This document shows, piece by piece, positions 50,926 through 54,025 of a stretch of 64,000 nt of DNA (positions are counted from its first letter, which is position 1; every line of letters begins with the position of its first letter). A program made the position numbers and the translations under genes. Source of the stretch: Deltaproteobacteria bacterium. GTDB taxonomy: Bacteria; Myxococcota_A; UBA9042; DTJE01. The notes below the pieces were generated by a model, which was not told the origin of the DNA, searched no databases, and saw only the letters and a list, made by a program, of their open reading frames with translations. The stretch is taken from the NCBI GenBank assembly GCA_029547805.1, contig JAKPOP010000004.1, positions 1 to 64,000 on the forward strand. The letters run 5' to 3'.

Positions 50926-50954
50926 GTGACTGTCCCTCCGATTCGTGGTAGGCT
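50926..50954 (+). promoter_or_regulatory. possible promoter of the zinc-ribbon gene, overlapping a REP-like repeat
   Basis: GTGACT (50926-50931), 17 nt, TAGGCT (50949-50954). The -35 box is the inverted core of the GGGACAGTCAC repeat, so the repeat may supply promoter sequence. Confidence 0.4.
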
Positions 50955-50982
50955 CTGGGGAGCGAGGGATCAGGAGATGGCC

Positions 50983-51447
50983 ATGAAGGTCTGCCCGCGG
51001 TGCGGTCGAACCTGGCCCGATACGGGACGGTTCTGCCCGATGGATGGAACGGGCCTGGTGGCCCAGGCCGAGGTGGCCCCGCAGCCGGCGCCGCAGGAGG
51101 AGCCGGCGGTGGCCCCGCCTGCCCCTCCGGTCCCGCCCCGAAAGGCCACGCGGGGCACCCGGGCGGTCCGGGCCGCGGCCTCGGAGAAGCCGACCCAGGC
51201 GGCGCCGCCGGCGGGGCAGGCGGCCGAGGGAGCGGCGTCCCGAAAGGGCCGGTCCCGGGGCGGCTTCTCGGAGACGAAGTGGTTCATGGCCGGGGAACTG
51301 GAGGTCCCGAAGGACGAGATCGGGCCCGAGATCCTGGCACCGACGGACCTGGAGCCTCGCTACAAGAAGACCCGGGAACTGCCTCCCGAGGTCCGGCGCC
51401 GGTTCTCCCTGGAACGGGATGGGGACGCCTCGAAGGACTCGAAATGA
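50983..51447 (+). CDS. zinc-ribbon protein with Pro/Ala-rich middle
   Basis: This is a 154-aa protein of unknown function. It opens with a four-cysteine zinc ribbon (VCPRCGRTWPDTGRFCPMDG), runs through about 70 residues of Ala/Pro-rich basic linker, and ends with a conserved-looking acidic/basic tail (ELEVPKDEIGPEILAPTDLE). Zinc-ribbon starts of this kind occur in Myxococcota signalling proteins. The ATG at 50983 has AGGAG six bases upstream; the in-frame ATG at 50977 would have no spacing. The stop overlaps the start of the CinA-like gene (ATGA). Confidence 0.75.
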   Translation: MKVCPRCGRTWPDTGRFCPMDGTGLVAQAEVAPQPAPQEEPAVAPPAPPVPPRKATRGTRAVRAAASEKPTQAAPPAGQAAEGAASRKGRSRGGFSETKWFMAGELEVPKDEIGPEILAPTDLEPRYKKTRELPPEVRRRFSLERDGDASKDSK

Positions 51448-52142
51448 GTCCGGTGGCCGCCCGGAAGGTCCGGTTGTACGGCGTCTCGGTCCAGGAAGTC
51501 GCCTCCTTCTGCAAGGGGATCTCCCGCCCCGAGAACCCGGCCATCGCCTGGGAGGCCTTTCCGGAGGTTCACGTGAAGTGCCCGGATCGGGCGGCCCTGG
51601 AGGCGGTGCTGGAGCGCTTCCCGGAGGCGGTCTATGGCCTCGACGACCTGACCTTCGAAGAGGCGGTGGTTCGGGGGCTGCTGGCCGGGGGCTGGACCCT
51701 GGCCACCGCCGAGTCCTGCACCGGCGGCCTGATCGCCGCGATGGTCACGGCGGTGCCCGGGAGCAGCGGGACCTACCTGGGCGGGGTGGTGGCCTACTCG
51801 AACGCCGTGAAGGCCCGGTGGCTCGAGGTGCCGGAGGACCTGCTGCGGGATCACGGCGCCGTGTCGGGACCGGTGGTCGAGGCGATGGCCTCGGGGGTCC
51901 GACGACGCATGGCGGCGGACCTGGCCGTGGCCGTCTCCGGCGTGGCCGGTCCCGGTGGCGGGACGCCGGAGAAGCCCGTGGGAACGGTCTGGGTGGCCTG
52001 GGAGGGGCCGGGAGAGGTCCGGGAGTCCCGGCGACTGGCCCTGGCAGGGGATCGGGACCATGTTCGGCGGGCGGCGGCCTACGAGGCCCTCGAGGGGATT
52101 CGCCGGCGTTTCCTGGTTCCGGGAGCCGACAGGGTCTTGTGA
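51444..52142 (+). CDS. CinA C-terminal domain protein (NMN amidohydrolase, PncC-like) lacking the MoCF domain
   Basis: This 232-aa protein corresponds to the middle and C-terminal parts of CinA. The C-terminal domain has TLATAESCTGGLIAAMVTAVPGSSGTYLGGVVAY and AVSGVAGPGGGTPEKPVGTVW, matching the nicotinamide-mononucleotide deamidase PncC. Residues 1-75 keep the short linker domain (EVHVKCPD... VYGLDDLTFEEAVV). The N-terminal nucleotide-pyrophosphatase (MoCF/COG1058) domain is absent. cinA commonly precedes thpR and recA, so this looks like a domain-loss variant of the locus rather than a broken copy. Confidence 0.88.
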   Translation: MSPVAARKVRLYGVSVQEVASFCKGISRPENPAIAWEAFPEVHVKCPDRAALEAVLERFPEAVYGLDDLTFEEAVVRGLLAGGWTLATAESCTGGLIAAMVTAVPGSSGTYLGGVVAYSNAVKARWLEVPEDLLRDHGAVSGPVVEAMASGVRRRMAADLAVAVSGVAGPGGGTPEKPVGTVWVAWEGPGEVRESRRLALAGDRDHVRRAAAYEALEGIRRRFLVPGADRVL

Positions 52143-52151
52143 GGGGAAGAC

Positions 52152-52793
52152 ATGGCGGAATCGTCGCGCGTCGAGTGGTCGGGGCGGCAAGGGCCCCCAT
52201 GCTGGGTGGGGATCGAGTTGCCGCCGGGGGCGGCCCAGCGGATGCTCGGGGCGGTCCGGCGGCTCGTGGCGGCGATGGGTCCCGACGCGGCGCGCTGGTG
52301 CTGGGTGGACCCGAAGGACTGGTGGATTCCCCTCTGGGTGATGCCTCCCGGAACCCCGCCCGACCGGGCCGCCGACGCCGTGCGGTGCGTGGCACAGGAC
52401 CTGTCCGCCTTCTCCCTGTCCCTGGGTCCCTGGTCCCGGTGGCCGGGGGACCGGCTGGTGGTCCCGGCGGGACCACCGGAGGGGATCCGGCCGTTCCAGG
52501 AGGCCCTGGGGACCGCCCTGGACCGCCAGGGCTTCGACGGAGACGTCGTGGAGCAGCCCGGGCTGGTCGTCGCCTGGGCGTCCGGGGCCCGGGAGGCGAC
52601 CTGGGAACCTCCGGCCGAGCGGGAGGAGTCGGGGCCTCCCCGGGGCTTCACCGTGCGGACGATGGGCGTCCTGTCGGGGGACCTTCCGCCGGCCTCCTTC
52701 CGCCCTGTCCGAACCGTGGAACTGCGCCGGAACAGTCCGGGGACGGGGACAGTCACCGAATCATCCTGGTCAACCTCTCGTAACAACGAGTAA
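52152..52793 (+). CDS. ThpR/LigT-fold protein lacking both catalytic HxT motifs
   Basis: This is a 213-aa protein. Residues 17-175 track the 2H phosphoesterase ThpR (RNA 2',3'-cyclic phosphodiesterase) from end to end: CWVGIELPPGAAQRMLGAV, WCWVDPKDW, SAFSLSLGPWSRWP, ALGTALDRQGFDGD and FTVRTMGVLSGDLPPASF. The position of the first HxTL motif reads WIPL (58-61) and the second reads as GLVVAW, so both catalytic histidines are missing. The position between a cinA-type gene and recA fits thpR. The last 16 residues are encoded by a REP-like repeat (52745-52780). It is probably catalytically dead or repurposed; a different family cannot be fully excluded. Confidence 0.65.
   Translation: MAESSRVEWSGRQGPPCWVGIELPPGAAQRMLGAVRRLVAAMGPDAARWCWVDPKDWWIPLWVMPPGTPPDRAADAVRCVAQDLSAFSLSLGPWSRWPGDRLVVPAGPPEGIRPFQEALGTALDRQGFDGDVVEQPGLVVAWASGAREATWEPPAEREESGPPRGFTVRTMGVLSGDLPPASFRPVRTVELRRNSPGTGTVTESSWSTSRNNE
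52745..52780 (+). repeat. REP-like repeat, copy in the 3' end of the ThpR-like gene
   Basis: The sequence GGGGACAGTCACCGAAT and about 20 following bases are shared with 62501-62537: the first 17 bases are identical and the rest partly so. This copy lies inside the coding frame and supplies the C-terminal residues. Confidence 0.65.
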
Positions 52794-52960: not shown

Positions 52961-54025
52961 ATGCCGAAGGACCCCAAGACCCAGCCGGTCACCGACGACC
53001 GGGAACGCAACATCGCGGTGGCGGTGCAGACCATCGAGCGGCAGTTCGGCAAGGGCAGCATCATGCGCCTCAAGGAGGGCGAGGTCGCCGTGGGAACCGT
53101 CCCGGTGATCCCCACCGGGTCCCTGGGCCTGGATCTCGCCCTGGGTACCGGTGGCTACCCCAAGGGTCGCGTGGTGGAGATCTACGGCCAGGAGTCGTCG
53201 GGCAAGACCACGCTGGCCCTGCTGGCCATCGCCGAGGCCCAGAAGAAGGGCGGACTCGCGGTGTTCATCGACGCGGAGCACGCCCTGGACGTCCAGTATG
53301 CGAGGCGCCTGGGGGTCAAGGTGGACGACCTGCTGCTGGCTCAGCCGGATACCGGCGAACAGGCCCTCGAGATCGCCGAGACCCTGGTCCGGACCAACGC
53401 CGTGGACGTCGTGGTGGTGGACTCGGTGGCCGCGCTGGTCCCGAAGGCGGAACTCGAGGGCGAGATGGGCGACTCCCACGTCGGCCTCCAGGCCCGGCTC
53501 ATGAGCCAGGCCCTGCGGAAACTGGCCGGGGTGCTGTCGAAGTCCAACACCTGCATGATCTTCATCAACCAGATCCGCATGAAGATCGGCGTGATGTACG
53601 GCAATCCCGAAACGACCACCGGCGGCAATGCCCTCAAGTTCTATGCCAGCGTGCGCCTGGAGGTTCGACGAGGACAGACGATCAAGGACGGCGACGGCGG
53701 GCAGGGGACGGGCAGCCGGGTCCGGGTCAAGGTGGTGAAGAACAAGCTGGCTCCGCCGTTCCGGGAGGCCGAGTTCGACCTGATCTACGGCGAGGGGGTC
53801 AACCGCCTGGGAGAGGTGGTGGACCTGGCGGCCGCCTGTGGTGTGTTGGAGAAGAGCGGGTCCTGGTACTCCTTCGGTGGCGAGCGCCTGGGACAGGGCC
53901 GGGAGCAGGCGATGGCCTTCCTCCAGGAACACCCCGACGTCCAGGAACAGGTCTCCAACGCGGTGCTGGCCCACTTCGGGCTGGCCGAGCGGAAACCGTC
54001 TGGCGTGGAGGCGGCCGGTGCCTGA
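52961..54025 (+). CDS. recA: recombinase RecA
   Basis: RecA is the ATP-dependent strand-exchange protein and SOS co-protease. The 354-aa protein has Walker A GQESSGKT (76-83), [32 protein letters not shown], loop L2 [25 protein letters not shown], and [21 protein letters not shown]. The acidic C-terminus of many RecA proteins is replaced by a short neutral tail ([12 protein letters not shown]). AGGAG lies six bases before the ATG. The end overlaps the start of the PilT-like gene by 8 nt. Confidence 0.98.

Follow-up and report, generated by a model that had tools for sequence, protein, structure and literature searches.

A 2H-fold relative of ThpR without either HxT motif in the cinA-recA slot of a Myxococcota genome

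The slot gene and the fold of its product

A gene located between cinA and recA was analysed in a 64,000-nucleotide stretch of DNA, referred to here as the window, which comprises positions 1 to 64,000 of contig JAKPOP010000004.1 (assembly GCA_029547805.1) from a Deltaproteobacteria bacterium assigned to Myxococcota_A. The gene (52152..52793, plus strand) runs from ATG to TAA and encodes a protein of 213 amino acids, termed pseudo-ThpR, with the predicted two-histidine (2H) fold and neither HxT motif; it represents a variant of an established protein family, in an operon that is likewise established. Its start lies 9 nt past the stop codon of cinA (51444..52142, plus strand), whose 232-residue product has a PncC (nicotinamide mononucleotide (NMN) deamidase) domain (PF02464, E=2.3e-57) and a short N-terminal stretch. 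The start of recA (52961..54025, plus strand; PF00154, E=6.7e-132) lies 167 nt past the end of pseudo-thpR. The genome has a second recA gene, L023 (G000:C4:793424-794431), which shares 63% identity with the recA of the window, and two recA genes are also present in nearly every relative of the family.

The assignment of pseudo-ThpR to the 2H fold was settled by a family profile and a structural model, as single-sequence searches were nearly blind. The single sequence matched PF13563 at E=0.054 and 14 bits, which does not reach the cut-off of 27, and it was not among the matches of TIGR02258 in the window genome; phmmer against PDB gave only a chance match to a toxin (E=1.3). The profile of 11 orthologues, in contrast, gave matches covering most of its length to the Pyrococcus LigT structure 2fyh (E=1.7e-5) and to 1vdx (E=2.8e-4), and hhalign aligned it with nine intact ThpR sequences at E=1.5e-11 across 176 columns. 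The AlphaFold2 model has a mean confidence score (pLDDT) of 75.8 and a predicted TM-score (pTM) of 0.74, and Foldseek ranks E. coli LigT as its top match (E=4.7e-8). VIA-align of the model gave Z scores of 16.9 for PH0099 (1vdx, the best match), 16.7 for Deinococcus drCPDase and 15.6 for E. coli LigT. Comparison with 1vdx, drCPDase and TT0787 gave Z of 16-17 with 166-172 residues aligned, and Z values of 15-17 to LigT, drCPDase, AKAP18 and Usb1 place the model within the 2H superfamily fold. A different fold was rejected on the grounds that both the model and the family profile match LigT structures. The kinship with ThpR and the loss of the motifs are not due to chance.

Changes in the active site and ligand pocket

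Residues were numbered by joint alignment with E. coli LigT, in which the ligand-contact residues F8, F48, R120, R130 and the catalytic His and Thr residues have been assigned roles (PMC5283653). Both HxT/S motifs are absent from the window protein. By this alignment His43-x-Thr45-Leu46 of LigT has become W58-I-P-L61 (52323..52334, plus strand), while His125-x-Thr127 has become G137-L-V139, part of a segment that extends through the Arg130 position and now reads G137-L-V-V-A-W142 (52560..52577, plus strand). The remaining contact positions have changed as well, with the base-stacking F8 and F48 replaced by W and V, R120 by V, and the phosphate-binding R130 by W142. Active ThpR proteins keep F8, H43, T45, F48, R120, H125, T127 and R130 invariant or nearly so. 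In the pseudo-ThpR family, H125 falls in the 98th percentile of column variability, H43 and R120 in the 79th and the other pocket positions in the 34th-63rd, a comparison that is descriptive, carries no formal test and is made on related rows. Net charge averages -7.0 in the family (range -1 to -12) and +3.6 in active ThpR.

The first-pass annotation of this DNA had described a ThpR fold, the customary thpR position between cinA and recA, the sequences WIPL and GLVVAW in place of the HxT motifs, and a clean open frame. Each of these observations holds: the fold in the profile, the hhalign comparison and the superposed model, which resembles 2H phosphoesterases as predicted and not an unrelated fold; the position in the coordinates and in 17 intact slots elsewhere; the loss of both histidines on the LigT alignment; and the frame in all 11 orthologues recovered. 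The proposed role without phosphodiesterase chemistry is likewise supported. The same annotation had suggested that RNA or nucleotide binding was kept. A protein that binds RNA ends or nucleotides without catalysis might serve the RecA response as a reader, a sponge or an RNA chaperone, and several features would suit such a role. The fold is preserved, in E. coli LigT a groove that reaches beyond the histidines accommodates tRNA and nucleotides (PMC5283653), the 2H-fold protein ms64 of the trypanosome mitoribosome (6hiv_DQ) suggests that RNA machines can include this fold, and aromatic residues (W58 and W142) are present in the window protein. Retained binding nevertheless appears unlikely and finds no support here. 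F8, F48, R120, R130 and the His/Thr residues have been replaced and the ligand-contact positions are unconserved, the basic residues are gone and the family is acidic throughout its range; variable pocket columns together with the shift from basic to acidic charge argue against a kept RNA groove.

Retention of the gene within the family

The 13 genomes of the family yielded 11 orthologues, and the judgement covers these, with G004 and G006 outside it. All 11 genes lie behind cinA, have an open frame and lack the first motif, and 10 of them lack the second histidine. A decayed singleton was therefore rejected, the motif loss being common to the family, which answers the orthologue check that the first-pass annotation had proposed. 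Two metagenome-assembled genomes of the same family, L088 and L090, are titled 'Anaeromyxobacter dehalogenans' and 'Oligoflexales bacterium', and these titles look wrong.

Selection on the gene was estimated as the ratio of nonsynonymous to synonymous substitution rates (dN/dS) with the Nei-Gojobori (NG86) and maximum likelihood methods, whose absolute values are rough because dS lies around 0.4-1.3 and GC content at third positions is high. A comparison of pseudo-thpR between the window and the nearest relative gave an NG86 dN/dS of 0.45 for the first 190 codons (bootstrap 0.32-0.67). The corresponding values for intact thpR, cinA and recA in this genome pair are 0.35, 0.20 and 0.07. In another pair (G011/G012) pseudo-thpR has a dN/dS of 0.26 versus 0.24 for cinA. 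The bootstrap range stays below 0.75 in every whole-gene or core comparison. Pseudo-thpR is under purifying selection, and is less constrained in the window's own genus.

These values bear on the possibility that the gene is decaying slowly under relaxed selection and persists only through its location in the operon. Such decay would agree with the dN/dS of 0.45-0.51 in the window pair, the unconserved tail, the presence of an intact ThpR elsewhere in 7 of the 13 family genomes and the several losses of catalysis in the phylum. The explanation is quite improbable, however, in view of the frame that is open in 11/11 orthologues, the new conserved motifs described below, and the dN/dS of the G011/G012 pair, which equals that of cinA. 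The first-pass annotation had offered the onset of relaxed selection as an option and dN/dS as its check; with a loss that is family-wide and values of 0.45 and 0.26, well below 1, that option is unsupported.

Conservation in the family has shifted to helix 1 (E22, N/Q29, L32, R36/R37), P54, P93, G127, G145 and the C-terminal part, which holds P162 and, in most members, the sequence TPLAGWLVGGL. E22, L32, R36, P54, G127 and P162 vary in none of the sequences aligned there. The strong conservation of E22 and R36/R37 and the new C-terminal motif might be taken to indicate a new enzyme whose activity relies on different residues of the same fold. We strongly doubt this, as the conserved residues form no obvious catalytic set, many of them are hydrophobic or glycine, and hydrophobic residues line the former pocket.

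The window genome carries an intact ThpR elsewhere (G000:C3:60997-61533), and each of the seven canonical copies in the family has both motifs. A prozyme-like role for the dead copy, in which it would activate intact ThpR or form hetero-oligomers with it, would fit the six genomes that hold both copies (G000, G001, G007, G008, G010 and G011), but this was rejected as extremely improbable in view of four genomes of 92-97% completeness (G002, G003, G005 and G012) that keep the dead copy and lack canonical ThpR.

The slot across Myxococcota and a possible partnership with CinA

An intact thpR lies between cinA and recA at 17 sampled Myxococcota loci, a location that is common for thpR although it does not define the family. 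The same slot holds degenerate forms in families f1, f28, f48 and f30 and half-lost forms in f3, f9 and f19, and within f19 one genome is intact and another lacks the second histidine. On a RecA tree the label 'dead' costs about five changes, at least two of which are forced by well-supported branches; the label is coarse and includes the f30 loci G185, G098 and G114, which keep the second-site histidine as HxP. The slot genes of G139, G189 and G154 have a weak sequence tie to ThpR and are excluded from firm claims. Based on the changes on the RecA tree and the mixed state of f19, motif loss in the slot ThpR has happened more than once.

A domain search of the 232-residue window CinA gave no match to the N-terminal COG1058 domain. 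The two CinA domains are known as an ADP-ribose pyrophosphatase (COG1058) and an NMN deamidase (PncC) (PMC3680494, PMC4246079). CinA lacks COG1058 at 11/11 family loci and at the window locus, and carries it at 17/17 loci with intact thpR. Further losses in the sample (G158, G014 and G020) all occur with a degenerate or half-lost ThpR, so that COG1058 loss is seen only where the slot ThpR is in one of these states. The four families with N-domain loss all fall among the seven with degenerate ThpR, of 21 sampled, for which the chance is 35/5985 or about 0.006, a hand count by families made after the fact. The link between CinA N-domain loss and ThpR degeneration is one-way, since eleven loci with degenerate ThpR still carry COG1058 in CinA. 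A stand-alone COG1058 gene is present elsewhere in the window genome (G000:C19, about 290152-290892).

Directly upstream of cinA is a gene for a small zinc-ribbon protein (50926..51447, plus strand; probable true start near 50977-50983). Its stop and the cinA start overlap by 4 nt, and with the 9-nt spacing behind cinA this makes the zinc-ribbon gene, cinA and pseudo-thpR look like a co-translated set. The zinc-ribbon protein has the N-terminal motif CPRCGRTWPDTGRFCPMDG and a conserved C-terminal segment FSETKWFM...YKKTRELPPEVRRRFSL; its gene precedes cinA in several family genomes, and in Pfam it gives only a weak DZR match. In the relatives that were measured, no more than about 60 nt separate the cinA stop from the start of pseudo-thpR, the G005 distance being taken from a truncated start. 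The distance to recA is 44-156 nt in seven relatives and 1.9-3.1 kb in genus g5 (L050, L041 and L040), where the gene for a long, cysteine-rich and probably exported repeat protein lies between pseudo-thpR and recA.

Our preferred reading, which we consider about evenly poised between right and wrong, is that pseudo-ThpR is a conserved pseudoenzyme kept for protein contacts, with CinA as its most likely partner. The ancestor would have been the thpR of a cinA-thpR-recA operon, and its conversion would have kept the 2H fold but removed the phosphate-binding arginine along with the catalytic pair and the basic, aromatic groove for RNA. From these losses we infer that the 2',3'-cyclic phosphodiesterase and 2'-5' ligase chemistry is gone, and RNA ends are probably no longer bound in the old cleft. 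Retention may depend on protein contacts made by the N-terminal helix (E22, N/Q29, L32, R36/R37), with the C-terminal TPLAGWLVGGL strand as a putative second contact part in most members. CinA is the first candidate partner because pseudo-thpR stays within about 60 nt of cinA while recA is separated from it in g5, and the missing N-terminal domain of the presumably co-translated CinA would leave room for such a role.

Several points weigh against this reading. The AlphaFold2 model was built on six sequences. The C-terminal motif is eroded to GFTVRTMGVL in the window protein and its nearest relative, and roughly the final 20 residues show no conservation. In the window pair the dN/dS of pseudo-thpR is above that of cinA and somewhat above that of intact thpR, with overlapping bootstrap ranges. 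The family is not uniform, as G010 retains the second histidine and the arginine (HIPMAR). Finally, linkage to cinA may reflect an inherited operon order and not a functional bond.

A broader and tentative proposal, unlikely in our view, is that several Myxococcota lineages dismantled, step by step, the part of a cinA-thpR-recA repair operon that deals with ADP-ribose and cyclic phosphates, through loss of the ThpR active site and in some lineages of the ADP-ribose pyrophosphatase domain of CinA, with the dead ThpR kept as a non-catalytic subunit or regulator of CinA PncC that ties RecA-dependent repair to NAD recycling. Even in E. coli, what ThpR/LigT does for the bacterial cell is unknown (PMC5283653), and family-long retention after loss of the active site would separate ThpR chemistry from a further function not yet observed. 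Copies in one slot that range from intact through half-lost to fully lost form a natural separation-of-function series. Positional annotation of a thpR beside recA would assign an activity that is impossible here by the known mechanism. A literature search found no description of a dead ThpR in the cinA-recA slot, most subscription papers being outside its scope.

Pseudo-ThpR shares the 2H fold, over residues of about 15-193, with ThpR/LigT proteins such as E. coli LigT (5ldi), PH0099 (1vdx) and drCPDase (5h7e). Unlike them it lacks both HxT motifs, Arg130, Phe8 and Phe48, and whereas they are mostly basic it is acidic and falls under the TIGR02258 and PF13563 cut-offs. Trypanosomatid mitoribosomal ms64 (6hiw_DQ; Foldseek E=2.5e-7, Z 14.9) has a similar 2H/AKAP7-like fold and is a 2H-fold member in a structural setting, but differs in being a eukaryotic ribosomal protein. 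Pseudo-ThpR occupies the same cinA-to-recA slot as ligT in the radiation-induced cinA-ligT-recA operon of Deinococcus (PMC5552922). That association is known from Deinococcus/Thermus and some delta-proteobacteria (PMC3680494), and the gene order of those recA operons is the one found here; unlike in those operons, CinA here is without the COG1058 domain and ThpR without its active site.
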